Source: Actinomycetota bacterium
GTDB lineage: Bacteria; Actinomycetota; Acidimicrobiia; Acidimicrobiales; JAJPHE01
DNA: 64,000 nt
Assembly (NCBI GenBank): GCA_021325435.1
Contig: JAJPHE010000142.1
Span: forward strand, 1-64,000
Reading direction: 5' to 3'
Shown here: positions 37,530 through 61,046 of the stretch, piece by piece
Position numbering within the stretch: position 1 is the stretch's first letter
Layout: each line of letters starts with the position of its first letter
Program-made: the position numbers and the translations under genes
Notes under the pieces: model-generated
What the model was told of the DNA's origin: nothing
The model's input: the letters and a program-made list of their open reading frames with translations, nothing else
Database searches by the model: none

Positions 37530-37541
37530 AGAACGCGTTCT
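37530..37541. promoter_or_regulatory. KstR-type operator before the NMO/CoA-transferase operon
   Basis: AGAACGCGTTCT is a perfect 12-bp palindrome flanked by TTTC and AAAA. Extended, it fits the published KstR motif TnnAACnnGTTnnA at all but the outer T. It lies 36 bases before the ATG of the NMO-like gene. The same core recurs at 45204-45215, and the regulator is probably the KstR-like TetR at 56431-57099. Confidence 0.8.
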
Positions 37542-37577
37542 AAAAGACGCCGAGGGACGAGAGCCAGGGGGCCGCCG

Positions 37578-38717
37578 ATGATGCGGAACGAGATCTGCGA
37601 GATGTTCGGAATCGAGTTCCCGATCTTCGCCTTCACCCACTGTCGCGACGTGGCCGCCGCCGTCAGCCGGGCCGGCGGGATGGGAGTTCTGGGGGCCCTC
37701 GCCTTCAGCCCCGAGCAGCTCGAGATCGAGCTGAAGTGGATCGACGAGCACGTGGACGGCCGCCCCTACGGCGTCGACGTGGTCATGCCGGTCAAGAGCG
37801 TCGACCGCGACGCCGGTCTCCACGACGAGAAGAACCTCTCCAAGCAGCTGCGCGACATGATCCCCAGCGAGCATTGGGACTACGTCGAGAAGATCCTCTC
37901 CGACCACGGCGTCCCCCCGCTGCCGGAGGAGGAGTCCGACGGGAGCCCGCTCAGCGAGGGGGTGCTGGGCTGGACCGAGGCCACCGGCTCGCCGCTGATC
38001 GACATCGCCCTCGCCCATCCCATCAGCCTGCTGGCCAGCGCCCTCGGGCCTCCGCCCAAGGAGGCGATCGACCGGGCCCACGCCCAGGGGGTGAAGGTGG
38101 CCGCCCTCATCGGCCGGGTCGAGCAGGCGGTTCGCGACGTCCAGCAGGGCGTCGACATCATCATCGCCCAGGGCTACGAGGCCGGGGGCCACACCGGCGA
38201 GGTGGCCAGCATGGTGCTGATCCCCGACGTGGTCGACGCGGTGGCGCCCGTGCCGGTCCTCGGAGCCGGTGGGATCGGCAGCGGCCGCCAGATGGCGGCG
38301 GCGATGGCCCTCGGCGCCCAGGGCGTCTGGACCGGTTCGATCTGGCTGACCACCAGCGAGTCGAACACCAGCGACATGGTGATGGACAAGCTGATCGGAG
38401 CGACCTCGACCGACACCGTCCGCTCGCGGGCGCTCACCGGCAAGCCCGCCCGCCAGCTGCGTACGGCCTGGACCGAGGCCTGGGAGGCGCCCGAGTCGCC
38501 GGGCACCCTGCCCATGCCCCTGCAGTTCATCCTGAACTCGCAGGCCATGCGGCGGGTGGCCCGGGTGAACAACAAGGAGCTCACCGGCATGCCGGTCGGT
38601 CAGATCGTGAGCCGCATGAACCGGGTGCGCACGTGCAAGGACGTCATCTTCGAGATGGTCGAGGAGTACATCGAGACGGTCACCAACATGGGATCGGTGA
38701 CGGCCGAGGTCTCCTGA
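37578..38717 (+). CDS. nitronate monooxygenase-family flavoprotein
   Basis: This 379-residue TIM-barrel protein has FPIFAFTHCRDVAAAVSRAGGMGVLGALAF near the N terminus, YGVDVVMPVKS, VDIIIAQGYEAGGHTGEVASMVLIPDVV and PVLGAGGIGSGRQMAAAMALGAQGVW. These mark FMN-binding 2-nitropropane dioxygenase-like enzymes. It differs from IpdC by a mid-protein insertion rich in acidic residues (about 85-135). The KstR-type box at 37530 links it to steroid control. The physiological substrate is unknown; redox chemistry on a CoA ester is inferred by analogy with IpdC. It precedes the double CoA-transferase gene by 37 bases. Confidence 0.82.
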   Translation: MMRNEICEMFGIEFPIFAFTHCRDVAAAVSRAGGMGVLGALAFSPEQLEIELKWIDEHVDGRPYGVDVVMPVKSVDRDAGLHDEKNLSKQLRDMIPSEHWDYVEKILSDHGVPPLPEEESDGSPLSEGVLGWTEATGSPLIDIALAHPISLLASALGPPPKEAIDRAHAQGVKVAALIGRVEQAVRDVQQGVDIIIAQGYEAGGHTGEVASMVLIPDVVDAVAPVPVLGAGGIGSGRQMAAAMALGAQGVWTGSIWLTTSESNTSDMVMDKLIGATSTDTVRSRALTGKPARQLRTAWTEAWEAPESPGTLPMPLQFILNSQAMRRVARVNNKELTGMPVGQIVSRMNRVRTCKDVIFEMVEEYIETVTNMGSVTAEVS

Positions 38718-38754
38718 TCCCAGCCTCCCCCGGGCTCCAACTCGGGCGGCCCCG

Positions 38755-41139: not shown

Positions 41140-41147
41140 GCGGAGAC

Positions 41148-41828: not shown

Positions 41829-41885
41829 GACAGGAACGTAACGGGACGACGTGAACGCAACGGGTCGCCTCCGAGAACACCGTGT

Positions 41886-41924: not shown

Positions 41925-41954
41925 CCCGGGAGCCGGAACGCGCTTGACTTCGGC

Positions 41955-43526
41955 ATGAGGCACCACAGGGGAATGAAGCGGACAAGCGCCGCGATGCTGA
42001 CGCTGTCCGCCATCGTGGCATTGGCCCTGAGCTCCTGCGGAGGCAGTTCGAAGACCGCCTCGGGGACCACCTCCACCACGGCAGCCTCGGGCCCGGTGAA
42101 CGGCGGCACGCTCACCGTCGGTGAGATCTTCGACGCCTTCAGCCTCGACCCCACCAAGATGATCGGCAGCGTCACCGACGGCACCATCGGGCTCACCCTG
42201 TACGACCCGCTCACCGACTACGACGCCCAGGGGAACGTCCAGCCGTGGCTGGCCCAGTCCTTGACCACGACCGACCAGCAGACCTGGACCATGAAGCTGC
42301 GCCCCGGGGTGACCTTCAGCGACGGGTCACCGTTCAACTCCGCCGCCGTGGTGTTCAACATCAACCGGCACAAGGACCCGGCCAACGGGTCCCGCGAGAT
42401 CTTCACCGCTCAGCAGATCACGTCGGTCTCGGCCCCGGACGACCTCACCGTCGTGTTCAAGCTGAAGGACCCGTGGTCCGACTTCCCGGGGGCCCTGGCC
42501 GGCCCGCTGGGCTTCATGGCGTCGCCCACGGCCATCCAGAAGGAAGGCGCCGACTACGGGAACCACCCCGTCGGCACCGGACCGTTCACCCTGGTCGAGT
42601 GGGTGAAGCAGGACCACCTGACCGTGCAGAGGAACCCCCACTACTGGCGGCCCGGCGAGCCCCACCTCGACCAGATCGTCTTCCGACCGATCGTCGACCG
42701 CCAGACCAGGGTCGCCAGCGTGGTGAAGGGCGAGACGCAGGTGGGACAGACGATCAACATCGACGACGTGGCCACGGCCCAGGGAGTGGGGTCATCGGTC
42801 TCACCCCCCCAACAAAACCTCATTGTGATGAACACCAAGGTGGCGCCGTTCAACGACGTGCGGGTCCGCCAGGCCCTCGCCTACGCCACCGACACCTCGG
42901 CGCTCAACAAGGTGGTGTTCGGCGGCCACGGAACCCACACTCCGGCCTTCATCGAGAACGACTCCCCCTACCTGGACCCGTCGGTGAAGTGGCCGAGCTT
43001 TGACCCGGCCAAGGCCATCCAGCTGATCAAGTCGTACGAGGCGGAGCACGGTGCGATCTCGTTCACCTATTCGTGCTACACCGATCCCGACCAGATCAAG
43101 ATGACCGCCCTCCTGCAGCAGATGTGGCAGCAGGTGGGTCTCAAGATCACCACCAAGACCAGCGACCAGCAGACCTTCGTGGTCAGCGTCTTCCTGCACA
43201 ACTACCAGGTGGCCTGCTTCGGCGGGGCGGCGACCAGCGACCCCGATGCCGCCTACTACCCGATCTTCTTCAGCACCAGCGCCACCAACTGGACCCAGTT
43301 CTCCAACCCTCAGCTCGACGCCGCCCTCACCACCGGCCACCAGAGCGCCGACCCCAACGTGCGCCGGACCGCCTACGACACGGCCCAGCAGATCCTGGCC
43401 GAACAGGTGCCGGAGTTCGCCACCGTGGCGTCGCCGTGGGGGTGGCTGTTCACCCGGTCGGTCCACGGGCTGGTCGACCTGTCCGACGGCACCTTCTTCC
43501 CCTCGGAGGTGTGGCTCTCGCACTGA
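41955..43526 (+). CDS. ABC transporter substrate-binding lipoprotein (family 5)
   Basis: This protein of up to 523 residues has a lipoprotein signal: a basic start (MKRTSAAM), a hydrophobic run (LTLSAIVALALSSC) and Cys as the lipidated residue, followed by a Ser/Thr linker. The mature part has the family 5 oligopeptide/nickel-binding architecture, with NGGTLTVGEIFDAFSLDPTKM, a YDPLTDYDAQGNVQPWLAQS block and RQALAYATDTSALNKVVFGG. ATG 41955 and ATG 41973 are both possible. No permease is adjacent; the opp-type permeases and ATPases lie 6 kb away on the other strand. The ligand could be a peptide, metal or hydrophobic acid. Confidence 0.88.
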   Translation: MRHHRGMKRTSAAMLTLSAIVALALSSCGGSSKTASGTTSTTAASGPVNGGTLTVGEIFDAFSLDPTKMIGSVTDGTIGLTLYDPLTDYDAQGNVQPWLAQSLTTTDQQTWTMKLRPGVTFSDGSPFNSAAVVFNINRHKDPANGSREIFTAQQITSVSAPDDLTVVFKLKDPWSDFPGALAGPLGFMASPTAIQKEGADYGNHPVGTGPFTLVEWVKQDHLTVQRNPHYWRPGEPHLDQIVFRPIVDRQTRVASVVKGETQVGQTINIDDVATAQGVGSSVSPPQQNLIVMNTKVAPFNDVRVRQALAYATDTSALNKVVFGGHGTHTPAFIENDSPYLDPSVKWPSFDPAKAIQLIKSYEAEHGAISFTYSCYTDPDQIKMTALLQQMWQQVGLKITTKTSDQQTFVVSVFLHNYQVACFGGAATSDPDAAYYPIFFSTSATNWTQFSNPQLDAALTTGHQSADPNVRRTAYDTAQQILAEQVPEFATVASPWGWLFTRSVHGLVDLSDGTFFPSEVWLSH

Positions 43527-44273: not shown

Positions 44274-44276
44274 CGG

Positions 44277-45203: not shown

Positions 45204-45215
45204 AGAACGCGTTCT
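45204..45215. promoter_or_regulatory. KstR-type operator between LLM and amidohydrolase genes
   Basis: AGAACGCGTTCT is identical to the core at 37530-37541 and lies midway in the 102-base divergent gap. On the plus strand its last T begins a TAGTAT -10 hexamer (45215-45220), so bound repressor would cover the promoter of the amidohydrolase gene. The minus-strand LLM start is 52 bases away. The arrangement suits joint control of both genes. Confidence 0.82.
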
Positions 45216-46524: not shown

Positions 46525-47670
46525 CTAGGTCGGCTCGGCCCGCAGGATGCCGAGGGCGAAGTACTGGGCGGCGCCCCCGTAGGCCTGGGCCAGGGCCGTG
46601 CGGGCCCCGTCCACCTGGTGCTCGCCGGCCTGTCCCCTCACCTGGAGGGCCGCCTCGGCGAAGCGGACCATGCCCGAGGCGCCGATGGCGTTGGTCGACA
46701 GCACCCCACCGGAGGGGTTGACGGGGAAGCTGCCGGTGATCTCCGTCTCGCCGCTGTCGACCATCTTCCAGCCCTCACCCGGCCCGGCGATGTCGTGGCC
46801 TTCGAGCCACATGGGCTCGTACCAGCTGAACGGCACGTACAGCTCGGCGACATCGATCTGGCTGCGGGGGTCGGTGATGCCCGCCTGCCGGTACAGGTCG
46901 TGGGCGCAGTCCACCCCCGCCTGGGGCTTGACCGGGTTGCGCCCGGGGAACTGGGCCAGCTCGCTGCGAACCGACAGGGCCTCCACCCAGGCGGGGGGGC
47001 GGGGCGCCCTTCGTCCCCCGGCTTCGTTGGTGAGCACGACGGCGCACGCCCCGTCGGACGACGGGCACGACTCGAGGAACCGGATGGGGTCCCACAGCAT
47101 CGGGGACTCCTTCACCTTCTCGATGGTGATGTCGGCGATCTTCAGATGGGCGTAGGGGTTCTTGACCGCATTGAGCCGGTCCTTGACCGCCACCTGCCAC
47201 CCGATGTACTCGGGCGCCCCCGACTGGTGGATGTAGGCCCGCATCCAGGGGGCGAAGGCGCCTCCGGCGCCGATGCCCCCACTGCGGCCCCCGGCCAGGC
47301 CCCACTGGGCGTTGCCCTCCGACTGCTTCTCCCACGCCACCGCCAGGACCCGCTCGTGGATGCCGGTGATGATGTGGTGGGCGCCGACCACGAACGTCGA
47401 GCCGCCCACGCTGCCGGCGGTGTGCACCCGCAGGAGCGGCTTGCCCGCCGCCCCCAGGGCGTCGGCCAGGAACAGCTCGGGCTGGATGATGCCCTCGAAG
47501 GCGTCGGGCGCCTTGCCGATGACCACGGCGTCGATGTCGGCGATGGTGCACTCGGCGTCCTCCAGGGCCCGGTCCACCGCTTCGCGGATCAGCCCGGCGA
47601 TGGTCACATCGTCGCGGGTCTTCTTGAAGTGCGTCTGACCGATGCCAACGACCGCGCAGCGCTCCATCAC
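46525..47670 (-). CDS. ltp3: thiolase-like lipid-transfer protein Ltp3-type
   Basis: This 381-residue protein has the thiolase fold of the SCP-x/Ltp group. Landmarks are VVGIGQTHFKKTRDDVTI at the N terminus, VHTAGSVGGSTFVVGAHHIITG, and VNPSGGVLSTNAIGASGMVRFAEAALQVRGQAG with an AQAYGGAAQYFALGIL close. The usual nucleophile Cys segment is replaced by HTAGSVGG, as in steroid side-chain aldolase-type Ltp proteins, which work with DUF35 partners. Length and block order fit mycobacterial Ltp3 (Rv3523). It is the last of four overlapping genes DUF35-DUF35-ltp4-ltp3, overlapping ltp4 by four bases. Confidence 0.82.
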   Translation of the reverse strand: MMERCAVVGIGQTHFKKTRDDVTIAGLIREAVDRALEDAECTIADIDAVVIGKAPDAFEGIIQPELFLADALGAAGKPLLRVHTAGSVGGSTFVVGAHHIITGIHERVLAVAWEKQSEGNAQWGLAGGRSGGIGAGGAFAPWMRAYIHQSGAPEYIGWQVAVKDRLNAVKNPYAHLKIADITIEKVKESPMLWDPIRFLESCPSSDGACAVVLTNEAGGRRAPRPPAWVEALSVRSELAQFPGRNPVKPQAGVDCAHDLYRQAGITDPRSQIDVAELYVPFSWYEPMWLEGHDIAGPGEGWKMVDSGETEITGSFPVNPSGGVLSTNAIGASGMVRFAEAALQVRGQAGEHQVDGARTALAQAYGGAAQYFALGILRAEPT

Positions 47671-48725
47671 TCACCCTCCAGGAGACAGACCAGGTTCTGC
47701 TGCAGCAGCTGACCGCCCGTGGCGTGGGCCACGGCCCGGTTGGCCGAGCCGTCGATGATCCGGGCGGCCGCTTCGATGATCCGGATGAGGCCGGCGGCCA
47801 TCACCGGGTTACCGGCCAGCGGACCGCCGGACGGGTTGATCTCCGTCGCCTCGGGCAGCCCGATCGCCTCGCGCAGGATGATCTCCTGGGGGCTGAAGAC
47901 GGCGCACAGCTCGGCCACGTCGACCGGCCCGCCGTCGTAGCCGGCCTTGCGGGCGGCCAGGGTGGCGGAGGGCGCCGTGGTCAGGTCGCGCATGCCCGGC
48001 TGGTGGGGATCCACTCGGTGGTCGAGGCCGCGGATCCACGCCGGCCGGCTGCAGAGCTGGCGGGCCTTGTCCCCTCTCGCCAGCACGACGGCCGCCGCCC
48101 CGTCGGTGATCGGCGGCAGGTCGTGGCGGCGCAGGGGCGAGGAGAAATAGGGCTCGGCCAGCAGGGCGTCGGCGTCGACGTCCCCCTTGAGCTGGGCGTT
48201 GGGGTTCGACCGGGCCGCCCGCCGGCTGCGGGCCACCACCTCGGCGAAGTCGCGCTCGGTCGCCTTGCCCGACTCCAGCAGGGCCCGGGCCTGGATGCCG
48301 GCCAGAGACGCCGGGTCCACTCCGAGAGGGGCCAGGTAGTAGGGGTCGAGCTGCTGGGGCCACAGCTCGAGGGGGTTGGCCGGCGAGGACTTCCCCGAGC
48401 CGAACACCAGGGCGGTGTCGATGTCGCCCTCCTGCAGCCGCACCCACGCCTCGTAGAGGGCCCAGGCCCCGTCGGCCTCGACGTGGGACTCGGCGATCGG
48501 CGGCCAGGCGCCGGCCGCTTCGAGGTTCTGTACGAAGGCGAAGGGGCCACCGGTCAGGTAGTCGCAGCTGCCGGCGCAGGTGAAGCCGATCTCGCGCCGG
48601 TCGACCCCGGACATCTCGATGGCCTCGGCCACGGTCGGCACCAGCAGCTGGACCTCGCTGCGGGCGTCGTCGCGCACGGACGGAGTCTGGGCGAATCCGA
48701 TGACGGCGATGTCTGTGGCGGGCAT
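47667..48725 (-). CDS. ltp4: thiolase-like lipid-transfer protein Ltp4-type
   Basis: This 352-residue thiolase-fold protein is close to the length of mycobacterial Ltp4 (Rv3522). It has DIAVIGFAQTPSVRDDARSEVQLLVP, FTCAGSCDYLTGGPFAFVQNLEAAGAWPPIAESHVEADGAWALYEAW, and a C-terminal INPSGGPLAGNPVMAAGLIRIIEAA. SCDYL gives a Cys near the usual nucleophile region. In mycobacteria Ltp and DUF35 partners shorten the steroid side chain by retro-aldol cleavage; this role is inferred by homology. The ATG start overlaps the preceding DUF35 stop (ATGA). Confidence 0.82.
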   Translation of the reverse strand: MPATDIAVIGFAQTPSVRDDARSEVQLLVPTVAEAIEMSGVDRREIGFTCAGSCDYLTGGPFAFVQNLEAAGAWPPIAESHVEADGAWALYEAWVRLQEGDIDTALVFGSGKSSPANPLELWPQQLDPYYLAPLGVDPASLAGIQARALLESGKATERDFAEVVARSRRAARSNPNAQLKGDVDADALLAEPYFSSPLRRHDLPPITDGAAAVVLARGDKARQLCSRPAWIRGLDHRVDPHQPGMRDLTTAPSATLAARKAGYDGGPVDVAELCAVFSPQEIILREAIGLPEATEINPSGGPLAGNPVMAAGLIRIIEAAARIIDGSANRAVAHATGGQLLQQNLVCLLEGE

Positions 48726-49719: not shown

Positions 49720-49731
49720 AGAACACATTCT
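49720..49731. promoter_or_regulatory. KstR-type operator and promoter of the DUF35-ltp operon
   Basis: AGAACACATTCT lies 9 bases upstream of the GTG of the first DUF35 gene (minus strand). Read in the gene direction it is ATAGAATGTGTTCT, identical over 14 bases to the copy before echA19. TAGAAT (49732-49727) is a good -10 hexamer, so operator and promoter coincide. An outer inverted repeat CCCGGAA / TTCCGGG (49711-49717, 49734-49740) surrounds it. Confidence 0.82.
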
Positions 49732-49797: not shown

Positions 49798-50805
49798 TCA
49801 GGGGCGGGGGGCGCCGGCCGTCAACGGGAAATGGCAGGCCACGAATTGCTCGGGGGCGACCGCCCTCATGATGGGCTCCTCCTCGGCGCAGCGGGGTTGG
49901 GCCCGGGGGCAGCGGGTCCGGAACCGGCAGCCGCTGGGCGGGTCGACCGGAGACGGGGGCTCGCCGTCCAGGACCTCCTCGTCGCTGGGGCGGACGCTGG
50001 GGTCGGGCACCGGAACCGACTCGAGGAGGGCGGCGGTGTACGGGTGGGCCGGGCCGCCGAACACGCTGGCGGCCGGCCCGATCTCGCACAGCTTGCCGAG
50101 GTACATGACCGCCACCCGGTCGCTGATGTGACGGACCACCGACAGGTCGTGGGCGATGAACAGCATGGTGGGCCGGTAGCGCTCCCTGAGGTCGAGCAAG
50201 AGGTTGAGGATCTGGGCCCGCACCGACACGTCCAGGGACGAGACGGCCTCGTCGCACACCAGCACCTGGGGCTCGAGGACCAGGGCTCGGGCGATCGATA
50301 TGCGCTGGCACTGCCCGCCCGAGAACTGGCTGGGTCGCCGGTCCCCTACGGCGGCGGGGTCGAGGCCGACGGCCGAAAGAAGCTCGTCGACCCTGGCGTC
50401 GATGTCGGGGCGGGATCGGTTCCAGACCCGCATGGGCTCGCCGACGACGCCACGCACCGACCGTCTCGGGTTCAGGGAGGACAGCGGGTCCTGGAACACC
50501 ATTTGCAGACGGGGACGGACGGCGCGCACCTGGCGGCGTCCGAGGGTGGTCAGGTCCACCCCGTCGAGGAGCACCCGGCCCGACCGAGGCGGGGGCAGCT
50601 GCATGACGGCGCGGCCGATGGACGTCTTGCCCGACCCGGACTCCCCCACCAGGCCGAGGGTCTCCCCTTCGAGCACGTCGAAGCTGACGCCGGAGACGGC
50701 GTGGACGACCCGGCCGCCCGGGGCGGGGAACTCGACGACGACATCCTCCACCCGCAGCAGGGCGCCGGGGCGGAGGGGTCCGTCCTCCACCGTCGCCGTC
50801 GTCAC
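49798..50805 (-). CDS. oligopeptide-type ABC transporter ATPase (OppF/DppF-like)
   Basis: This 335-residue ATP-binding subunit has Walker A GESGSGKTSIGRAV, Q-loop QMVFQDPLSSLNPR, signature FSGGQCQRISIARAL and Walker B VLVCDEAVSSLDVSVRAQ. Its C-terminal extension has CRFRTRCPRAQPRC, the Cys-rich motif of Opp/Dpp ATPases. GTG 50805 overlaps the preceding ATPase stop by four bases (GTGA). It is the last gene of a permease-permease-ATPase-ATPase operon on the minus strand. The substrate is unknown; the nearest binding protein is at 41955 on the opposite strand. Confidence 0.93.
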   Translation of the reverse strand: MTTATVEDGPLRPGALLRVEDVVVEFPAPGGRVVHAVSGVSFDVLEGETLGLVGESGSGKTSIGRAVMQLPPPRSGRVLLDGVDLTTLGRRQVRAVRPRLQMVFQDPLSSLNPRRSVRGVVGEPMRVWNRSRPDIDARVDELLSAVGLDPAAVGDRRPSQFSGGQCQRISIARALVLEPQVLVCDEAVSSLDVSVRAQILNLLLDLRERYRPTMLFIAHDLSVVRHISDRVAVMYLGKLCEIGPAASVFGGPAHPYTAALLESVPVPDPSVRPSDEEVLDGEPPSPVDPPSGCRFRTRCPRAQPRCAEEEPIMRAVAPEQFVACHFPLTAGAPRP

Positions 50806-51809
50806 GTCGCCGCTGCCGGAGGCTCCGGGTCCCCCAGCGGAAACCAGCAGGCGAAGCGGTGGCCGTCGGCGCCGGCGAGCGGTGGCTCCTCGGCCCGGCA
50901 CCGGTCGGCGGCGCGCGGGCAGCGGGGCGCGAACCGGCAACCGGAGGGTGGGTCGACGAGGCTGGGCGGCTGACCCGGGATGGTTGCCAGCCGCTCACCG
51001 GGACGGGCGTCGGCCCGGGGGATGGCCTCCAGCAACGCCCGGGTGTAGGGGTGGCGGGTGGCGCTGAACACCGTGGCGGTCGGGCCCTGCTCCACCACCT
51101 TGCCGGCGTACATGACCGCCAGGTCGTCCGTGCTGCCGGCCACCACCCCCATGTCGTGGGTGACGAGGATCACGGCCATGTTCCGTTGGCGTCGCAGCCT
51201 TCCGAGCAGGCGGAGGATCTGGCTCTGCACGGTCACGTCGAGGGCGGTGGTCGGCTCGTCGGCGAGCAGCAGCGAGGGATCGCAAGCCAGAGCGATGGCG
51301 ATGGTCACCCGCTGGCGCATGCCGCCCGACAACTGGTGGGGGTAGTCGCGCAGGCGTCGCTCCGGATCGGGGATGCCCACCGCCTCAAGGAGCGCCCGGG
51401 CCCGGCGCCGGGCCTCCTGGCGGCCGACACCGAGGTGGTGGCGCATGCCGTCGGTCAGCTGGGTGCCCACCCGCATCACCGGGTTCAGCGACGTCATCGG
51501 GTCCTGGAACACCATCCCGATGCGCCTGCCCCTGACGTCACGAATGACGGCCGGGGGCGCTCCGGCCAGCTCGAGTCCCTCGAAGCACACCGTGCCACCG
51601 GTCGAGGCGATGGCCCGACGGGGCAGCAGGCCGACGATGGAGCGCAACAGGACCGTCTTGCCGGAACCGGACTCGCCCACCACGCCGAGGCAGCGGCCGG
51701 GCTCGACGCCGAGCGAGACGCCGTCCACCGCCCGCAGCGGGCCCTCCGGCGTGGCGAACCAGGTGCGCAGCTCGTGCATCTCGAGCACCGGCGCGGACTG
51801 CGCCGTCAC
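50802..51809 (-). CDS. oligopeptide-type ABC transporter ATPase (OppD/DppD-like)
   Basis: This 335-residue ATP-binding subunit has Walker A GESGSGKTVLLRSIV, a Q-loop in MVFQDPMTSLNPVMRVG, signature LSGGMRQRVTIAIALACDP and Walker B LLLADEPTTALDVTVQSQ. It ends with the C-terminal Cys motif CRFAPRCPRAADRC shared by Opp/Dpp ATPases. The GTG start overlaps the permease stop by four bases. It is the partner of the ATPase at 49798-50805, giving a heterodimeric motor on the inner face of the membrane. Confidence 0.93.
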   Translation of the reverse strand: MTAQSAPVLEMHELRTWFATPEGPLRAVDGVSLGVEPGRCLGVVGESGSGKTVLLRSIVGLLPRRAIASTGGTVCFEGLELAGAPPAVIRDVRGRRIGMVFQDPMTSLNPVMRVGTQLTDGMRHHLGVGRQEARRRARALLEAVGIPDPERRLRDYPHQLSGGMRQRVTIAIALACDPSLLLADEPTTALDVTVQSQILRLLGRLRRQRNMAVILVTHDMGVVAGSTDDLAVMYAGKVVEQGPTATVFSATRHPYTRALLEAIPRADARPGERLATIPGQPPSLVDPPSGCRFAPRCPRAADRCRAEEPPLAGADGHRFACWFPLGDPEPPAAAT

Positions 51810-52705
51810 CGCCGGCCACCTCGAGCATCGATCATCGACCGCAGACGTTCACCGGCGAGGTTGAGGGCGAAGACCGTGAGGAACATGGCCACCGACGGGA
51901 ACAGCACGATGAGCGGGTCGGTCTGGATCTCCTGGCGCCCGCCGGCGATGATGTTGCCCCACGTGGGCGTCTGGGGCGGCACGCTCAGCCCCATGAAGCT
52001 GAGCGCCCCTTCGGCGACGATGGCGACGGCGGCGGCCAGCAGCCCGAAGGTGAGAAGGCTCGGCAGGATGTTGGGCGCCACCTCGCGCCAGAGCACCCGC
52101 CACGAGGACGCGCCGGTGCTCCGGGCGGCCAGCACGAACTCGCGCTGGGCCAGGACGAGAGTGTTGGCCCGGGCCAGGCGCAGGAACACCGGCACGGTGA
52201 CCACGGCGATGGCGATGATGATGTTCACCAGCGTCTTGCCGAAAAAGGCGGTGATGAACAGCAGCAGGATGAGGGCCGGGAACGAGAGCATGGCATCGGC
52301 CACGGTCATCAGCGCCGCCTCGACTTTGCCCCGGAAGTAGCCAGCCACCGCCCCCAGGGGGGCACCGACCGCCAACCCGATCAGGATGGAGAAGAGCCCG
52401 ACGGCTAGCGACACCCGGGCCCCGTAGATGATGCGCGAGAGCAGGTCGAGTCCCACCGCGTCGGTGCCGAGCCAGTGGTGAGCGCTCGGGCCGGCGGCCA
52501 GTGAGGAGAAGTCGCTGATATTCGGGTCGCGCAACGGAAGCAGCGAGGCGGTGGCGGCCAGGACTCCCACCAACGCCAGCCATCCGACGCTCAGCCAGAA
52601 CACCGGCCCCAGCCGAGCGGAGGCCCTCAGGGAAAGCGTGGCGCTGGGCAGGGAGGGGGCGGCCTCGGCCGCCACCAACAGGTTGGGGTCAGGCTGCTGC
52701 GACAT
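51806..52705 (-). CDS. ABC transporter permease (OppC/DppC-like)
   Basis: This 299-residue membrane protein has the N-terminal extended tail and about six hydrophobic helices of type C oligopeptide permeases. The cytoplasmic EAA-type loop (FVLAARSTGASSWRVLWREVAPNILPSLL) contacts the ATPase, and HWLGTDAVGLDLLSRIIYGARVSL is the standard family block. Its start overlaps the OppB-like gene end by 17 bases, and its stop overlaps the ATPase start by four. It is the second permease of the importer. Confidence 0.92.
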   Translation of the reverse strand: MSQQPDPNLLVAAEAAPSLPSATLSLRASARLGPVFWLSVGWLALVGVLAATASLLPLRDPNISDFSSLAAGPSAHHWLGTDAVGLDLLSRIIYGARVSLAVGLFSILIGLAVGAPLGAVAGYFRGKVEAALMTVADAMLSFPALILLLFITAFFGKTLVNIIIAIAVVTVPVFLRLARANTLVLAQREFVLAARSTGASSWRVLWREVAPNILPSLLTFGLLAAAVAIVAEGALSFMGLSVPPQTPTWGNIIAGGRQEIQTDPLIVLFPSVAMFLTVFALNLAGERLRSMIDARGGRR

Positions 52706-53639
52706 GGCGGGTTCGGGGGTCGAGAACGGCGTATAGGAGGTCGACGCCCAGGTTGATGGCGACGTACACCACGACGGTGAAGAGGATCACACCCTGGATC
52801 ATCACCAGGTCGTGGGCGAAGATGGAGCTCACCAGGAGCATGCCCACGCCGGGTAGGCCGAAGAGAAACTCGACGACCACCGCCCCGCTCATGAGCTGGC
52901 CCACGTTGAGCCCGGCCAGAGTGATGAGCGAGAAGGAAGAGGGCCGCAGGGCGTAGCGGAAGAGGATCTGCCAGGTCGGCAGGCCTTTGGCCTCGGCCAT
53001 GGTGACGTGGTCCTCGCGCAGCGTGGCGATCATGTCGCCCCGCAGAACCCTCGAGTAGATGGCGATCTGCGGCAGAGCGAGGGTGAGAGCCGGCAGGGTC
53101 ATGGACTCGAGGTTGCCGCCCACGCTGTGGGTTAGGTGGGTGAAGCCCGATATCTGCAGCACGTTCAGCTTCACCGGGAAGACGATGATGAGAAGCAGCC
53201 CCAGCACGAAGCTGGGCAGGGCGATGGTGGCGAAACTGAGGCCCGACCACGCCCGGTCCACCAACCCCTCGGCCCGGTAGGCGGTGAGGACCCCGACGGG
53301 GACGGCCACCGCCAGGCCGAGCACCTGGGCCAGCAGCATCAGCTCGATGGAGACCGGCAGCCGCTGGGCCAGGGCCGACACCACGCTCTGGCCGGTCTGG
53401 TAGGACTGGCCCAGGTCCCCGTGGAAGGCGCGAGCCAGCCAGTGGCCGTAGGCGGAGATGATCGGACGATCGAGGCCGATCTGGTGGCGGAGGAGGGCCA
53501 CCTCCTGCTGCGACGCCTGAGGGCCCAGGAAGGCTCGAGCCGGATCGCCCGGAAGCACCCGGACCAGGGCGAAGGTGGCGAAGCTGACGAGCAGCAGGAC
53601 CGGCGCCAGCTCCAACAGCCGGCCCTTTACTTGCTTCAA
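52689..53639 (-). CDS. ABC transporter permease (OppB/DppB-like)
   Basis: This 316-residue permease has a first helix (LLELAPVLLLVSFATFALV), the family run PGDPARAFLGPQASQQEVALLRHQIGLDRP, and the EAA loop ATLREDHVTMAEAKGLPTWQILFRYALRPSSFSL. It also has a terminal GVDLLYAVLDPRTRH. It is first in the four-gene importer operon, divergent from the LLM gene at 53785. The 145-base gap between them contains no KstR-type box, so this importer appears independently controlled. Confidence 0.92.
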   Translation of the reverse strand: MKQVKGRLLELAPVLLLVSFATFALVRVLPGDPARAFLGPQASQQEVALLRHQIGLDRPIISAYGHWLARAFHGDLGQSYQTGQSVVSALAQRLPVSIELMLLAQVLGLAVAVPVGVLTAYRAEGLVDRAWSGLSFATIALPSFVLGLLLIIVFPVKLNVLQISGFTHLTHSVGGNLESMTLPALTLALPQIAIYSRVLRGDMIATLREDHVTMAEAKGLPTWQILFRYALRPSSFSLITLAGLNVGQLMSGAVVVEFLFGLPGVGMLLVSSIFAHDLVMIQGVILFTVVVYVAINLGVDLLYAVLDPRTRHVAAA

Positions 53640-53784: not shown

Positions 53785-54825
53785 ATGAAACTCGGTCTGC
53801 AGCTCGGCTACTGGGGCGCCCAGCCGCCCGCCGACGCCAGGGACAAGGTTCTCGAAGCCGAGAAGCTGGGCTTCGACACGGTGTTCGCCGCCGAGTCGTG
53901 GGGATCCGACGCCTTCACGCCCCTCGCCTGGTGGGGTTCGGAGACCCAGCGCATCCGGCTGGGAACCTCGATCGTGCAGATGTCGGCCCGCACCCCCACG
54001 TCGACGGCGATGCACGCTTTGACCCTCGACCACCTGTCCGGCGGCCGGGTGGTGCTCGGCCTCGGCCTCTCCGGCCCCCAGGTGGTGGAGGGCTGGTACG
54101 GACAGCCCTTCGGCAAGCCTCTCGCCCGCACCCGCGAGTTCGTGGGGATCGTCCGGCAGGTGATGGAACGCAACGGCCCGGTGACGAGCGCCGGTCCGCA
54201 CTACCCGCTTCCCTACTCCGGGGCCAACTCCATCGGCATCGGCAAGGCCCTCAAGCCCATCACCCACCCGTTGCGGGCCGACCTGCCGATCTGGCTCGGA
54301 AGCGAGGGGCCCAAGAACATCGCCCTGACGGCGGAGATCGCCGACGGCTGGCTTCCCATCTACTACTCGCCCACCGTGGCCGACATGTACAACTCCTGGC
54401 TCGACGAGGGCTTCGCCCGTCCCGGCGCCCACAGCAGCCGCGACCGGTTCGAGATCGCCGCCAACTGCCAGGTGGTGGTGACCGACGACGTCGACCGGAC
54501 GCTCGAAGCCATGCGGCCGATGTTGGCCTTCTACATCGGCGGCATGGGCGCCAAGGAGATGAACTTCCACAAGAACGTCTTCGCCCGCATGGGTTACGAG
54601 AAGGAGGCCGACCACATCCAGGACCTGTTCTTCGAGGGCAGACGGGACGAGGCCACCGCCGCCGTCCCCCTCGAAGCGGTCGACGACATCTCCCTCGTCG
54701 GCCCGCCCGAGCGGATCCGCGACCGGCTGGCCGCATGGGAGGAGGCGGGCGTCACCATGCTGGTGATCGGGGCCCGCTCCCTGCAGGAGATGCGTGGGGT
54801 GGCCGAGGTGATCCTGGAGGCCTGA
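53785..54825 (+). CDS. LLM-class F420-dependent oxidoreductase, Rv3520c-type
   Basis: This 346-residue luciferase-like protein closely follows mycobacterial Rv3520c as recalled. It has GLQLGYWGAQPPADARDKVLEAEKLGFDTVFAAESWGSDAFTPLAWWGS at the start, RIRLGTSIVQMSARTPTS, RVVLGLGLSGPQVVEGWYGQPFGKPLARTRE and GKALKPITHPLRADLPIWLGSEGPKN. Rv3520c sits beside the DUF35-ltp genes in mycobacteria, and the same gene set is present here about 4 kb away. F420-dependent oxidation or reduction in steroid metabolism is inferred. ATG 53785 has a GGGAGG site. Confidence 0.88.
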   Translation: MKLGLQLGYWGAQPPADARDKVLEAEKLGFDTVFAAESWGSDAFTPLAWWGSETQRIRLGTSIVQMSARTPTSTAMHALTLDHLSGGRVVLGLGLSGPQVVEGWYGQPFGKPLARTREFVGIVRQVMERNGPVTSAGPHYPLPYSGANSIGIGKALKPITHPLRADLPIWLGSEGPKNIALTAEIADGWLPIYYSPTVADMYNSWLDEGFARPGAHSSRDRFEIAANCQVVVTDDVDRTLEAMRPMLAFYIGGMGAKEMNFHKNVFARMGYEKEADHIQDLFFEGRRDEATAAVPLEAVDDISLVGPPERIRDRLAAWEEAGVTMLVIGARSLQEMRGVAEVILEA

Positions 54826-54855: not shown

Positions 54856-54867
54856 AGAACAGGTTCT
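54856..54867. promoter_or_regulatory. KstR-type operator before fadD at 54911
   Basis: AGAACAGGTTCT has perfect 5-bp arms and is followed by TATTCT (54867-54872), a plausible -10 hexamer, giving the same operator-then-promoter layout as the other copies. The fadD GTG start lies 43 bases downstream with a GAGGAG ribosome site. On the plus strand it fits TnnAACnnGTTnnA at every position except the outer T. Confidence 0.8.
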
Positions 54868-54910: not shown

Positions 54911-56461
54911 GTGACCGACATCGGATTCTGGCGTCTGGCCCAGAACGACCCGTCGAAGCTCGCCGTGGTGGACCCCGAGGAGAGACAGGTCACCTACGGG
55001 GAGCTGCTGGCCGAGTCCAACCGGCTGGTGCACGGCCTGCGCCGCCTCGGCCTAAAGGAGGGCGACGGGATCGTCACGGTGCTGCCGAACGGCATCGACA
55101 TGTACGCCCTGTACTTCGCCGCCCTGCAGGCCGGCTGGTACATCACCCCGGTCAACTTCCATCTGGCCGGGCCGGAGATCGCCTACATCGCCGAGGACTG
55201 CGAGGCCAAGGCCATCGTCGTCCACGAGCGGTTCTCGGAAGCCTGTGAGGCGGCGGCCAAGGAGCTGTCCATCCCCGCCGAGGGCCGTTTCGCCATCGGC
55301 GACGTCCCCGGCTTCCGGCCCTACCGCCAGCTGACCGACGGCCAGCCCGAAACGCTGCCGGAGGGCCGGGTGGCGGGCCAGGCCATGCACTACACCTCGG
55401 GCACGACCGGCAAGCCCAAAGGGGTGCGGCGGTCCCTGAGCGGCGCCAACCCCGACGAGGTGGCCGGCGGCCTCTCCGGCGTGCTCTTCATGTTCGGGCT
55501 CCAGCCCGACGACGGCAACGTGCACATCTGCGGCTCTCCGCTCTACCACACCGCCGTCCTCGTCTTCTCCTCGGCGGCGCTGCATCTCGGGCACCCGGTC
55601 GTCCTCATGGACAAGTGGGACCCCGAGGACATGCTGCGCCTGATCGAGAAGTACCGGGTGACCCACAGCCACATGGTTCCCACCCAGTTCCACCGGCTGC
55701 TGGCCCTGCCCAACGAAGCCAAGCAGCGCTACGACATCTCGTCGCTGCGTTGCATGATCCACGCCGCCGCCCCCTGCCCTCCCGACATCAAGCGGGCCAT
55801 GCTCGACTGGTGGGGGCCGGTGATCTACGAGTACTACGCCGCCACCGAGGGCGGAGGGACTCTCGTCACCCCGGAGGAGTGGCTCAAGAAGCCGGGCACC
55901 GTCGGGCGCCCCTGGCCGACCTCGGAGATCCGCGTTCTCGACGACGACGGCCGCGACGTGCCCACGGGTGAGACCGGCACCGTCTACATGAAGCTGCCGG
56001 CGGCCACCTTCGAGTACTTCAAGGACAAGGAGAAGACCGAGGAGAACCGCCGGGCCGGGTTCTTCACCGTGGGTGACGTCGGCTACCTCGACGAGGACGG
56101 CTACCTGTTCCTCTGCGATCGCAAGTCCGACATGATCATCTCGGGCGGGGTCAACATCTATCCGGCCGAGATCGAAGCGGCGTTCCTCACCAACCCGAAG
56201 GTCGCCGACGTTGCCGTGTTCGGCATCCCCCATCCGGACTGGGGCGAGGAGATCAAGGCGGTGGTCGAGCCGGCGGCTGGTGCGGAGCCCGGTCCGGAGC
56301 TGACCGAGGAGCTGCTGGCCCACTGCCGCGACCGCCTGGGGCGGTTCAAGATCCCGCGCAGCATCGACTACATCGACGAGATGCCGCGTGACCCGAACGG
56401 AAAGCTGTACAAGCGCAAGCTGCGCGACCCCTACTGGGTCGGGCGCGACCGGGCCATCTGA
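54911..56461 (+). CDS. acyl-CoA synthetase (FadD) of the KstR-box group
   Basis: This 516-residue ANL ligase has the P-loop YTSGTTGKPKGV near residue 160. Other landmarks are ICGSPLYHTAVLVFSSAAL, YEYYAATEGGG, FFTVGDVGYLDEDGYLFLCDRKSDMIISGGVNIYPAEIE and the catalytic lysine in PNGKLYKRKL. It has a TEGGG rather than TEAxG adenine motif, as in several actinobacterial steroid and medium-chain FadDs. It does not resemble FadD19 or FadD3 in block detail, so the acyl substrate (side-chain acid or fatty acid) is open. The KstR-type box at 54856 implies steroid-linked expression. Confidence 0.85.
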   Translation: MTDIGFWRLAQNDPSKLAVVDPEERQVTYGELLAESNRLVHGLRRLGLKEGDGIVTVLPNGIDMYALYFAALQAGWYITPVNFHLAGPEIAYIAEDCEAKAIVVHERFSEACEAAAKELSIPAEGRFAIGDVPGFRPYRQLTDGQPETLPEGRVAGQAMHYTSGTTGKPKGVRRSLSGANPDEVAGGLSGVLFMFGLQPDDGNVHICGSPLYHTAVLVFSSAALHLGHPVVLMDKWDPEDMLRLIEKYRVTHSHMVPTQFHRLLALPNEAKQRYDISSLRCMIHAAAPCPPDIKRAMLDWWGPVIYEYYAATEGGGTLVTPEEWLKKPGTVGRPWPTSEIRVLDDDGRDVPTGETGTVYMKLPAATFEYFKDKEKTEENRRAGFFTVGDVGYLDEDGYLFLCDRKSDMIISGGVNIYPAEIEAAFLTNPKVADVAVFGIPHPDWGEEIKAVVEPAAGAEPGPELTEELLAHCRDRLGRFKIPRSIDYIDEMPRDPNGKLYKRKLRDPYWVGRDRAI

Positions 56462-57099
56462 CCCCCCAGGTGGGGATGGGCCGCTAACAGGAGCCGGGCG
56501 GCCCGCTCGAGCTCGTCCCCGACGGTGGACAGCGGCGTGCGCCCGCTGGCCCAGCTGGTGAGGGACGAGTACCAGACGTGCTGCAGCACGGCGATGATGC
56601 CTTCGAGCTCGTCGTCGCTGACGCCCACCACGATCGAGCCGGTCATGGCGGTGATGTGTCCCCGCACCTCGGCGGCCGCCGCCGCCACCCCCGGCTCGGC
56701 CGAGGCCAACGCCTTCACCAGGGCGGCGGTGAGCACCGGGTGGCGCTCGAGCGCCCGGCAGCCCCGGCGCAGGACGTCTACCAGCCGGTCGGCGGGGGTG
56801 GCGCCCCGGGCGGGGACCTGGGCGAGGCGTCCCTGCAGCTGGCCGGACCACTCGACCATGGCCGCGGCCAACAGGTGGTCCTTGGAGCCGAAGTAGCGGT
56901 AGATGGTGCCGAGGGCGACCCGGGCCCGGTTCGCCACCTCGCGCATGTTGACCGCCTCGTAGCCGCCTTCCGCTCCGAGCTCCAGGGCGGCCTGGATGAC
57001 CCGATCGCGGCGGGCGAGCTGCTTGCCGCTCAGGGGGGACCCGTCCATGGTGGTCGTGACCGGCGGGTGCTCGGCACCGTCGGCGCGCGGGATGGCCAC
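56431..57099 (-). CDS. kstR: TetR-family repressor, KstR-like
   Basis: This 222-residue TetR protein has a DNA-binding domain (about 27-75) with AALELGAEGGYEAVNMREVANRARVALGTIYRYFGSKDHLL. GGYEAV-x-MR-x-VA-x-RA-x-VA-x-GT-x-YRYF-x-SK-x-HLL is shared with mycobacterial KstR, the repressor of cholesterol uptake and side-chain genes that is released by steroid-acid CoA esters. The ligand domain (ERHPVLTAALVKAL, VLQHVWYSSLTSWASGR) is also similar. It lies 5 bases downstream of echA19 in one operon behind the box at 57926, so it probably represses itself. Its 3' end overlaps the convergent fadD by 31 bases. A later ATG at 57048 is possible. Confidence 0.82.
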   Translation of the reverse strand: MAIPRADGAEHPPVTTTMDGSPLSGKQLARRDRVIQAALELGAEGGYEAVNMREVANRARVALGTIYRYFGSKDHLLAAAMVEWSGQLQGRLAQVPARGATPADRLVDVLRRGCRALERHPVLTAALVKALASAEPGVAAAAAEVRGHITAMTGSIVVGVSDDELEGIIAVLQHVWYSSLTSWASGRTPLSTVGDELERAARLLLAAHPHLGGQMARSRPTQ

Positions 57100-57104
57100 C
57101 CTGG

Positions 57105-57917
57105 TTAGCGACCCTTGAAGACCGGCGCCCGCTTCTCCATGAAGGCGCGCGGCCCCTCCTTGGCGTCCTCGCTCATGAAGACCTGCATGCCGATGGCGCT
57201 CTCGACCCGCATGGCCTCGTCCTCGGGCAGAGACTCGGTCTCGCGCAGCGCCCGCAGGACGGCCTGGACGGCAACCGGCCCGTTGGCCGCGATCTTCTCG
57301 GCGATCTCCAACGCCTGTTCGAGAGCGTGGCCGTCGGGCACCACGTAACCGATGAGACCGATGTCCTTGGCCTCCTGGGCGGTGATGTGGCGACCGGTCA
57401 GGAGTATGTCGGCGGCCAGCGTGTAGGGGATCTGACGGCGCAGGCGCACGGTGGAGCCGCCGAGCGGGAAGAGCGACCAGCGCACCTCCGACACCCCGAA
57501 GCGGGCGCTCTCGCCGGCCACGCGGATGTCAGTGGCCTGCAGGATCTCGGTGCCCCCGGCGACGGCGGCCCCTTCGACCGCGGCGACCAGGGGCTTGCTG
57601 AGACGGAAGCCCTTCAGGAGGGGCTTGATGACGCCCGACGCGATGCCGCTCGCCGGGGACTCGCCTTGCTGCTCGGCCTTGAAGGAGTCCCCGGGATGGG
57701 TCTGGGTCATGGCCTTGAGGTCGGCGCCGGCGCAGAAGGCGCCACCGGCGCCGGTGAGGATGGCCACCCTGATGTCGGGGTTGGTGTTGACCTCGTCCCA
57801 GGCCTCGCCCATGAGCTGCAACATCTCGCCCGACAGGGCGTTGCGCGCCTCCGGGCGGTTCATGGTGAGGACCAGGGTGTGCCCGACGCGCTCGGTCAGC
57901 AGGTGAGGCTCGCTCAT
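57105..57917 (-). CDS. echA19: steroid side-chain enoyl-CoA hydratase EchA19
   Basis: EchA19 hydrates steroid-enoyl-CoA in the first round of side-chain beta-oxidation. The 270-residue crotonase has [36 protein letters not shown] (oxyanion loop), [45 protein letters not shown], and [19 protein letters not shown]. The C terminus [17 protein letters not shown] matches mycobacterial EchA19 (Rv3516) almost word for word as recalled. ATG 57917 was chosen because it lies 8 bases after the operator and begins the conserved region. It leads the echA19-kstR operon. Confidence 0.92.
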
Positions 57918-57925
57918 CCCGGCAG

Positions 57926-57939
57926 TAGAACACATTCTA
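57926..57939. promoter_or_regulatory. KstR-type operator/promoter of echA19-kstR
   Basis: TAGAACACATTCTA lies 8 bases upstream of the echA19 ATG. Read toward echA19 it is ATAGAATGTGTTCT followed by ACTGCCGGG, nearly identical to the copy before the DUF35-ltp operon including the CCGGG leader. TAGAAT serves as a -10 hexamer. Its first three bases are also the TAG stop of the upstream amidohydrolase gene (57939-57937). Confidence 0.85.
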
Positions 57940-59442: not shown

Positions 59443-59446
59443 CGCC

Positions 59447-60979
59447 CTAGTCGCCGCCGGTGAAGACCGGAAGGAGATTGCGCCGCACCAGCTTGCCGGT
59501 GGAGGTGCGGGGGAGCGCATCCATGATGATCACCCGCTCGGGGCGCTTGTAGCCCGGAAGGCGACGGGCGCAGAAGGCCAGCACGTCCTCGGCCGTCAGG
59601 CCCGAGCCGGGGCGGGCGACGACGGCGGCGCCGACCCGCTCTCCCCACTCCTCGTCCGGCACCCCGACCACGCCGACGTCGGCGACATCGGGGTGCTCGA
59701 ACAAGGCGGCCTCGACGTCCTCCGGAGACACGTTCTCGCCGCCCCTGATGATCAACCCGCCGGCCCGACCGCCGAGGAAGAGATAGCCGTCCTCTTCGAG
59801 ATGACCGAGGTCGCCGGTGTGCAGCCACCCGGCGTCGTCGACGGTCCCCCGGGCCTCGGCGGAGGGCGCGCCCCAGTAGCCGGCCATGGTCCGGGCGGTG
59901 CGGATGAGGACCTCGCCGGTCTGGCCGGCCGGAAGGTCGTTGCCATCGTCGCCCACCACCCTCAGCTCGACGTCGTCGACCGGCCGCCCCACCGACGAGA
60001 GGCGGCGGGTCTTCGCCTCCACCTCCTCGGGCCCTCCGCTCAACCGGTGATCGTCGGGGCTCAGAACGGCGACGGTCGCGGTGGTCTCGGTCTGGCCGTA
60101 GGCGCCGGAGAACGAGACGGTCGACGGAAACGTCTGCAGCGCCCGCAGGATGAGGCTCGGCGGCATGGGCGCGGCCCCGTAGGTGACCAGTTCGAGACTG
60201 GAAAGGTCGCGCTTGGCGACGTCGGGGTGGGCCAGGAGGCGGGCCAGCATGGTGGGCACCAGGAAGCCGTGGGTCACCCGGTGTCGCTCGACGGCGTCGA
60301 GCCACTCGCCGGCGTCGAACTGCGCCAGCAGGACGGCGGGACGGCCTCCGTAGACGGCGGACAGAAGGGAGGAGATGGCCGCCACGTGATGGAGCGGCGC
60401 GGCGACGATCGTCCGGCCCCGGTCGGTCCCGTCGGCGCACTCGGACCGGTTCATGACGTAACCGGTGAGAGCACCGTGGGTCAGCATGACGCCTTTCGGC
60501 AATGACGTGGTGCCGCTCGTGTACAGGACCACGGCCACGTCGTCGTCGTCCACGTCGGCCGCCTCGACGACCGGGTCCCGTCGCTCGAGCTCCGCCTGGT
60601 AGTCGGGGCCGAACACCGTCACCGGCACGCCGCCGGCCTGAGCGCGCACCAGGTCGGAGTAGCGGCCCTCGGTGAACACGATCCTGGCTTGCGAGTCACC
60701 GAGCAGGTGGGCGAGCTCCTCCCCACCCGCCCGGCAGTTCATCGGCACCGCCACCGCTCCGAGCACGGCGGCACCGAAGAGCACCTCGGCGTAGGCCGCC
60801 TGGTTGGTCGAGAACACACCCACCCGGTCGCCCCGCCCCACGCCATGGTCGGCGAGAGTGGCGGCCACCCGGCCGGCGGCGTGGCGCAGCTGGCCGTAGG
60901 TGCGGGGCTGGCGGCCCAGGAACACCTCCTGCTCCGGCACGATCGACGCCGGGATGTCGAGCAGCATGGCCAGGTTCAC
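59447..60979 (-). CDS. acyl-CoA synthetase (FadD-like)
   Basis: This 510-residue ANL ligase has YTSGTTSLPKGVMLTHGAL as P-loop. Other landmarks are APLHHVAAISSLLSAVYGG, TYGAAPMPPSLILRAL, AYGQTETTAT, WLHTGDLGHLEEDGYLFLGGRAGGLIIRGGENVSPEDVE and a lysine in STGKLVRRNLL. The hinge GGRAGGLII lacks the usual Lys-Asp pair (commonly R-x-K-D/E), a mild deviation. GTG 60979 has a GGGAGGA site. A degenerate KstR-type half-palindrome lies about 55 bases upstream. The acyl substrate is unassigned. Confidence 0.84.
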   Translation of the reverse strand: MNLAMLLDIPASIVPEQEVFLGRQPRTYGQLRHAAGRVAATLADHGVGRGDRVGVFSTNQAAYAEVLFGAAVLGAVAVPMNCRAGGEELAHLLGDSQARIVFTEGRYSDLVRAQAGGVPVTVFGPDYQAELERRDPVVEAADVDDDDVAVVLYTSGTTSLPKGVMLTHGALTGYVMNRSECADGTDRGRTIVAAPLHHVAAISSLLSAVYGGRPAVLLAQFDAGEWLDAVERHRVTHGFLVPTMLARLLAHPDVAKRDLSSLELVTYGAAPMPPSLILRALQTFPSTVSFSGAYGQTETTATVAVLSPDDHRLSGGPEEVEAKTRRLSSVGRPVDDVELRVVGDDGNDLPAGQTGEVLIRTARTMAGYWGAPSAEARGTVDDAGWLHTGDLGHLEEDGYLFLGGRAGGLIIRGGENVSPEDVEAALFEHPDVADVGVVGVPDEEWGERVGAAVVARPGSGLTAEDVLAFCARRLPGYKRPERVIIMDALPRTSTGKLVRRNLLPVFTGGD

Positions 60980-61034
60980 GGCGTCCTCCCGGTGGCTGCC
61001 GACGCCGGGCGTCGTCGGGGACCGGCCGTAAAAT

Positions 61035-61046
61035 AGAACCTCTTCC
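61035..61046. promoter_or_regulatory. degenerate KstR-like site upstream of fadD (59447-60979)
   Basis: AGAACCTCTTCC keeps one perfect arm (GTTCT read on the minus strand) but only part of the other. On the minus strand it continues into AGGTTCTATTTT. The AGGTTCTATT segment is shared with the clear site at 54856, and TATTTT could be the -10 hexamer. It is probably a weak or decayed site of the same regulon. Confidence 0.4.

Follow-up and report, generated by a model that had tools for sequence, protein, structure and literature searches.

The closest described systems are the KstR regulons of mycobacteria. In Mycobacterium smegmatis and M. tuberculosis, KstR binds the palindrome TAGAAC(N2)GTTCTA, with the core AACnnGTT, upstream of and partly overlapping the -10 element, and one published site lies between Rv3520c and Rv3521 (PMC1995591). 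The ligands of KstR are steroid acyl-CoA compounds (PMC6678751, PMC9782250), and in 2012 KstR and its sites were proposed to have originated with the ancestor from which Mycobacterium and Rhodococcus descend (PMC3388012). Here, we analyzed a 64,000-nucleotide stretch of an Actinomycetota bacterium of the order Acidimicrobiales (assembly GCA_021325435.1, contig JAJPHE010000142.1, positions 1 to 64,000; the window), in which a KstR-type palindrome recurs across an island of steroid-type genes. We predict, with a probability of roughly 0.87, that these sites serve as operators for a KstR-family repressor system whose genes belong to that island as well.

The initial annotation had reported five clear copies of AGAAC-N2-RTTCT and a decayed sixth, and exact matches to this pattern, AGAACNNRTTCT, were indeed found at 37530, 45204, 49720, 54856, and 57927, the last position corrected from 57926. 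In the whole source assembly (4,008,378 bases, 160 contigs, 96% complete), the exact pattern occurs at six places, five of them in the window; the sixth (C53:51276-51287) falls at the 3' end of a 323-amino-acid open reading frame ending at C53:51289. The probability of at least five of six exact places lying inside 20,409 bp of 4,008,378 bp is 2e-11, for an interval picked post hoc. With one mismatch allowed, the genome yielded 92 forward matches versus 79 for a reversed control pattern. Such matches are thus at background: genome-wide, the exact form alone is informative, and weaker sites elsewhere in the genome are inseparable from noise. The expected clustering before steroid genes holds for the exact form, with five of six matches in 20.4 kb. 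Within the window, up to two mismatches on both strands gave 56 matches versus 22.3 +/- 5.8 in shuffled sequences.

From 22 published KstR site sequences (part of the full table in PMC1995591), cut to 18 symmetric bp, we built a matrix and scored C141, the 96,083-base contig that extends beyond the window, with it; a score of at least 12 defined a site. Its seven best positions were the five exact window sites followed by 74766 (15.2) and 77617 (12.7), whereas the eighth-best position, within coding sequence, scored 8.9. The centers of all seven are 15 to 57 bp from a start codon, a placement that may adjoin the -10 region, with -10 elements read by eye. In 40 Markov-simulated contigs, 0.1 positions per contig reached the threshold (one chance position scoring 24.9), against seven in the real contig.

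Each window site stands before a gene of the island. The best match in the contig, AGAACGCGTTCT at 45204 to 45215 (score 26.4, no strand assigned), sits between a leftward LLM oxidoreductase gene and a rightward amidohydrolase gene. The second-ranking site, AGAACACATTCT at 57927 to 57938 on the reverse strand (20.7), is centered 15 bp before a gene for an EchA19-type enoyl-CoA hydratase (57105 to 57917, reverse; NF051848, 405.9 bits, passing the cut-off of 400); the next gene downstream encodes the TetR-family protein that we call KstR-A. The third, AGAACAGGTTCT at 54856 to 54867 (forward, 19.5), is centered 50 bp before a FadD4-like acyl-CoA ligase gene (54911 to 56461, forward; NF038341, 518 bits, under the cut-off of 850). 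The fourth, AGAACACATTCT at 49720 to 49731 on the reverse strand (18.2), or AGAATGTGTTCT when read towards the gene, is centered 15 bp before the OB-fold gene OB_a. This gene heads an operon (46525 to 49710, reverse) of two OB-fold proteins of the ChsH2 C-terminal type (PF01796) and two thiolase/lipid-transfer proteins (PRK07937, 497 bits; PRK08313, 595 bits; both over cut-off), the latter presumably Ltp4- and Ltp3-like. The fifth, AGAACGCGTTCT at 37530 to 37541 (forward, 18.0), is centered 43 bp before a nitronate-monooxygenase-like gene (NMO; 37578 to 38717). Beyond the window, the site at C141:74766 precedes an acyl-CoA dehydrogenase gene and that at C141:77617 lies between genes for an amidohydrolase and a second KstR paralog, KstR-B.

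Conservation before orthologous genes carries the prediction further. From nine genomes selected for their KstR-like genes, G002 among them, we scanned 21 stretches totaling 652 kb. Matches below 48% identity were dropped, as were those that began past residue 45 or covered less than 45%; starts were mapped by homology and may err by tens of bases (e.g., OB_a in genome G101). Sites scoring at least 12 preceded 35 of the 56 operon heads, a single inner gene out of 38, and none of the 43 ring-cluster genes; the KstR-A relatives and a MarR gene were placed in none of these three classes. The Rv3520c-family LLM F420 oxidoreductase (LLM_Rv3520c; 53785 to 54825, forward; TIGR03559, 495.7 bits, passing the cut-off of 335) was counted as a head although no site precedes it in the window, and without it the heads with a site are 29 of 50. 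By gene, a site was present before 8/9 orthologs of OB_a, 6/6 of LLM_Rv3520c, 3/3 of FadD_59447, 6/8 of ACAD1, 4/6 of NMO, 3/8 of EchA19, 2/4 of FadD4, 1/4 of amidohydrolase_b, 1/3 each of o76709 and KstR-B, and 0/2 of LLM_44277; the amidohydrolase and LLM_44277 counts concern the two genes flanking 45204. In G070 and G101, OB_a and LLM_Rv3520c diverge around a single site, whereas in the window Opp transporter genes separate them. We take Rv3521 to be an OB-fold gene, by which the Rv3520c/Rv3521 pair would be matched to OB_a and the LLM gene here.

The scan also bears on the decayed sixth copy, at 61035 to 61046 on the reverse strand, before a FadD acyl-CoA ligase gene (59447 to 60979, reverse; PRK06187, 433.9 bits, cut-off 476; CasG, 325.8 bits, cut-off 750; both below). 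With two mismatches, a matrix score of 6.4, and rank 13 in C141, it is not above background by itself, but the orthologous genes carry a site in all three genomes concerned (scores 15.8, 15.8, and 20.5).

KstR loci elsewhere point the same way. Five such loci encode proteins that exceed the NCBI cut-off, and every one has an exact site 127 to 257 bp ahead of the matched region. G004 is assembled as one contig, and 90.7 kb of it, containing both of its KstR-like genes, hold 14 of its 19 exact sites; on the forward strand, exact sites number 18 in G004, 10 in G021, 13 in G048, and 8 in G003. Exact or one-mismatch sites stand close before KstR-like genes in G003, G021, G007, G059, and G001, as they do here, where 57927 precedes the EchA19-KstR-A pair and 77617 precedes KstR-B. 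Clustering, the published-site matrix, the known KstR loci, and ortholog conservation thus all came out for KstR, and we regard the identity of the operator as well supported by these comparisons.

Several observations weigh against this prediction. The strict published core, TnnAACnnGTTnnA, has no exact match within the window: four of the five sites each depart from it by a single base, and 49720 departs by two (relative to the 14-bp core, the outer T is missing in four sites and A replaces G in two), and the sole exact match in the whole of C141 is at 77617. That core is a consensus, and individual published sites vary (PMC1995591). The matrix training sites score 21.3 to 34.0, and four of the five window sites are under the lowest of them. 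The claimed match to the published motif is therefore sound in that a matrix of published sites ranks the window copies first to fifth, but it fails for the strict core; the five sites are recognizable, yet no textbook mycobacterial ones. Both KstR-A and KstR-B fall under the equivalog cut-off of 280 bits of NF033703, and KstR-A proteins of G004 and G021 have VALATIYRNF in the recognition region despite the many sites there. Some KstR-bearing relatives have few sites (two each in G046 and G047, none in G073). A site with at most one mismatch lies within 450 bp of only 16 of the 76 KstR-like genes examined, and one scoring at least 12 precedes the mapped start of only 1 of 8 KstR-A relatives. 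Finally, among 118 genomes, source included, 42 have a match to KstR-A at E <= 1e-20, many of them two, and the excess of exact sites over control is modest (median 4 in these 42 versus 1.5 in the other 76, p = 2.6e-4). The correlation gives weak support, because base composition varies among genomes.

The KstR-like TetR gene reported in the region is confirmed at 56431 to 57099 on the reverse strand (KstR-A; PF00440 and PF17925), but it is not the only candidate regulator, as KstR-B, a candidate no less good, is encoded outside the window at C141:77667-78260 (L026:17667-18260). Among NCBIfam models, KstR-A best matches NF033703, the KstR family, and in the genome-wide ranking KstR-B (150.6 bits) and KstR-A (about 139.6 to 139.8 bits) stand far above the next protein (37.3 bits). 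Since both are below the NCBI cut-off, they are KstR-related proteins and no certified KstR. They are 51% identical, each comprises TetR_N and TetR_C_20 (PF17925) domains, and the helix-turn-helix recognition region has hardly changed (VALGTIYRYF versus VAVGTLYRYF). Among solved structures, those closest to KstR-A bear the name KstR (E about 4e-30; PDB 5aqc, E = 3.5e-30); a single-sequence AlphaFold model of KstR-A is of low confidence (mean pLDDT 55). With KstR proteins over the cut-off, the paralogs share about 35 to 44% identity. In a midpoint-rooted tree of 75 of the 76 KstR-like proteins (one short row excluded), KstR-A belongs to a clade of 10 (support 100/96) and KstR-B groups with proteins of G001 and G002 (100/99). 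A branch supported at 100/98 parts both from the five over-cut-off KstR proteins, which makes a recent transfer from mycobacteria unlikely. Three KstR-like proteins of family f20 in the window's order (L191, L196, and L198, from G073, G021, and G108) lie across this branch, together with the mycobacterial KstR proteins. A third KstR-like gene of G070 (L122; G070:C32:154353-155006), adjoining EchA20-like and IpdB-like ring genes, clusters with distant paralogs. A scan of contigs with KstR-A confirmed at least five relatives, the best among the matches listed being 42% identical and from a metagenome-assembled genome named Deltaproteobacteria.

With two paralogs present, there is no justification for crediting the sites solely to the 56431-57099 protein. 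Two relatives with a single ortholog are informative in this respect: in G002 the one match at E <= 1e-20 is a KstR-B ortholog, in G101 it is a KstR-A ortholog, and both genomes keep sites before OB_a and LLM_Rv3520c, G101 also before NMO and G002 also before the amidohydrolase and FadD_59447 genes, while no site was found before the NMO, ACAD1, and KstR-B genes of G002. Both assemblies are incomplete (97% and 92%), so the absent paralog may be an assembly gap. Since single-paralog relatives retain sites, KstR-A and KstR-B probably share one operator, which is the simplest reading of the sequences. KstR-A may be autoregulated through 57927, as its gene directly follows EchA19 behind that predicted operator.

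KstR-B might instead act on the sites alone, KstR-A binding few or none of them (for instance its own promoter or a different variant). The higher family score of KstR-B (150.6 versus 139.8 bits), the exact TnnAACnnGTTnnA in its divergent promoter, and the sites kept in G002 before OB_a, the amidohydrolase gene, and LLM_Rv3520c speak for such a division of labor. G101, with the KstR-A ortholog only, keeps its sites nonetheless, and KstR-A follows EchA19 straight behind the second-best site of the contig; the possible assembly gaps just mentioned bear on both genomes, and we consider this arrangement unlikely. The converse, proposed in the initial annotation, is that KstR-A alone acts. It lies amid the sites, and its clade includes G004, G021, G048, and G003, all rich in exact sites, but each of these genomes has a second KstR-like gene too, G002 retains sites with no KstR-A ortholog detected, and KstR-B has a canonical site of its own, all of which leads us to doubt it. 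A regulator unrelated to KstR, with a similar palindrome by coincidence, could be sought among the 18 weaker matches to the KstR model in the genome; the fit to the KstR-site matrix, the conserved recognition region, the sites before regulator genes, and the gene content all favor KstR, making such a coincidence highly improbable. Chance or base composition, to which the background level of one-mismatch matches might point, is a negligible explanation for five exact sites that cluster, occupy promoters, and are kept in other genera.

We therefore return to operators serving a KstR-family system. What the sequence shows is the operator, where it sits in promoters and how it is conserved, along with the kinship of both proteins to KstR; binding, repression, and ligand we infer from mycobacterial KstR. 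On that model, a dimer of KstR-A, of KstR-B, or of either would occupy AGAACnnGTTCT, adjoining or covering the -10 region and blocking transcription, until a steroid side-chain acyl-CoA, produced by the acyl-CoA ligases of the regulon, would release the repressor. As predicted here, the regulon in this lineage consists of side-chain and acyl-CoA genes and the regulators themselves. A finer feature emerged from 40 sites (the 35 ortholog sites and the five window sites, with 74766 and 77617 excluded). All five sites centered 15 bp from the start codon have AGAAT as their gene-distal half, compared with 4 of the 35 located farther away (p = 2e-4); four of those five belong to one gene, OB_a, and starts in the relatives are those mapped by homology. 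AGAAT makes the half-site read TAGAAT, which is plausible as a -10 element, and our hypothesis is that in these short promoters the operator may also serve as the -10 box.

Other genes of the island complete the picture. At 49798 to 53639 and 41955 to 43526 lie ABC transporter genes of the Opp/Dpp type, together with one for a substrate-binding protein, with no matrix site scoring at least 12 before them. Between 64 and 78 kb, C141 encodes a steroid-22-oyl-CoA-synthetase-like ligase (670.8 bits, cut-off 900), a P450, two acyl-CoA dehydrogenases, CaiB-type CoA transferases, and a ferredoxin, part of this naming being based on weak or partial matches.

Genes for ring degradation form a forward-strand run at 14073 to 29288: KstD, EchA20-like, IpdAB-like CoA-transferase, HsaE, HsaG, HsaF, FadD3, HsaD, HsaC, and HsaA. 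HsaA and FadD3 exceed their cut-offs, and several of the other names rest on position or on similarity under the cut-off. The initial annotation had seen no operator before kstD, hsaE, fadD3, hsaA, or ipdC and had supposed that ring and side-chain genes are under different controls. The first point is confirmed, and the second has support through the absence of sites: the published-site matrix gave no site scoring at least 12 before the ring run in the contig or before any of these five genes; KstD stands outside the count of 43 ring-cluster orthologs, none with a site, and no site adjoins kstD in G002, G101, or G070.

Control of the ring genes by KstR2 was considered and rejected. The KstR2 pattern AnCAAGnnCTTGnT has no exact match in the source genome, G000, or in G101 (control 2 each); it occurs once in G002 and five times in G070, none of these on their ring-cluster contigs, C43 and C32. 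The count alone has no discriminating power, since G166 has 5 exact matches versus 15 for the control. In the window, the KstR2 motif gave 23 matches against 6.2 +/- 2.5 in shuffles, 18 of them inside genes: 22 have two mismatches, and the sole one-mismatch match, at 57586, lies within EchA19. Those outside listed genes are at 4049, 5174, 6165, 9192, and 29633.

The ring genes thus most likely answer, judging from their promoters, to a regulator other than KstR or KstR2. The best candidate is an IclR-family gene of the PcaR/PcaU/PobR-like type (29895 to 30716, forward; TIGR02431, 129 bits, under the cut-off of 284.75; Pfam), although this is a guess that we would back at even odds. It is codirectional with the ring genes (14.1 to 30.7 kb), and matches to it (E <= 1e-30) occurred in precisely those 4 of the 42 KstR-bearing genomes that also gave HsaA (E <= 1e-60), namely G000, G002, G070, and G101; as the two genes share one cluster, this co-occurrence is no proof of regulation. 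By eye, no common palindrome that could serve as an IclR operator was seen around kstD (four genomes), fadA6 (three genomes), or iclR and ipdC (source only), which is a small set. KstD-like proteins at E <= 1e-100 occur in 7 of the 42 genomes, three more than for HsaA, and in these three the identity is 43%. No HsaA was detected in 38 of the 42 KstR-bearing genomes, where a threshold could hide a few cases, with 7 of the 42 genomes less than 90% complete or more than 5% contaminated.

This distribution raises the question of which ligand KstR senses where no ring pathway is present. A tentative answer, which we hold to be rather less probable than its negation, is that the KstR-operator pair predates steroid ring degradation in the phylum and first governed the breakdown of side-chain-type acyl-CoA compounds (branched or isoprenoid acids), ring genes coming later under KstR in mycobacteria and under IclR here. 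If so, a side-chain-type role may persist in those KstR-bearing genomes of the order in which HsaA was not found.

Across the phylum, 20 of 198 genomes drawn from it have a KstR-like gene at E <= 1e-30, and 5 of these exceed the cut-off, all outside the class of the window. The 14-bp pattern TAGAACnnGTTCTA was searched in 13 of the 20. It occurs at 4 to 9 places in the five over-cut-off genomes (control 0 to 2), at two in G142 and three in G152 (control 0; in each of these genomes one place shares a contig with the KstR-like gene, at a distance of about 9 and 7 kb), at two each in G219 and G240 (control 0), and at none in G133, G140, G156, or G168. Of the genome families, we take f88 to be the Mycobacteriaceae and f83 to be Streptomyces. 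KstR-like proteins of the large-genome family f83 (L148 to L154) score 188 to 202 bits, and no exact operator was found within 1.5 kb of the gene at any of these seven loci. The 2012 claim for the origin of KstR and its sites looks too narrow in the light of the operators described here (PMC3388012). A literature search found no paper naming both KstR and Acidimicrobi. Nocardioides simplex is, we presume, a member of the mycobacterial class of the phylum. Since KstR motifs are already in print for it (PMC7593942), the present case is an extension to another class and not the first outside the mycobacteria.

How this locus compares with each known system can now be set out. The matching of genes between the mycobacterial targets and those here is in part our assumption. 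Like the mycobacterial KstR regulon, the island has the same palindrome, a possible placement of it by the -10 region, a predicted autoregulation, and, as targets, the Rv3520c/Rv3521 pair, EchA19, and acyl-CoA ligase genes (PMC1995591). It departs from that regulon in having two paralogs, a less conserved outer T, and an Opp-type ABC transporter set within the island. M. tuberculosis KstR is described as governing ring A/B opening (PMC6678751), whereas no sites precede the ring A/B genes here. With the KstR2 regulon (PMC3068626), the window shares ring C/D-type genes (fadD3-, ipd-, and fadA6-like, named partly by similarity) but not the exact operator, absent from the source genome as noted above. 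The KstR and KstR2 motifs of Nocardioides simplex are reported to be very close to the mycobacterial ones, and the ring genes of its cluster D likewise lack KstR and KstR2 sites, whereas its main cluster A, ring genes included, is under KstR/KstR2 (PMC7593942). KstR3 of Mycolicibacterium neoaurum, a TetR repressor of an operon encoding an aldolase and a DUF35 (ChsH-type) protein (PMC10398937), recalls the OB-fold/Ltp operon headed by OB_a. The palindrome, the KstR kin, and the matching targets in another class suggest that the cholesterol-type switch is a phylum-level feature. Read from its sequence, the island thus presents a KstR-type regulon, a switch of familiar type that here occurs in another class, with two paralogs, a changed membership, and ring genes free of its sites.

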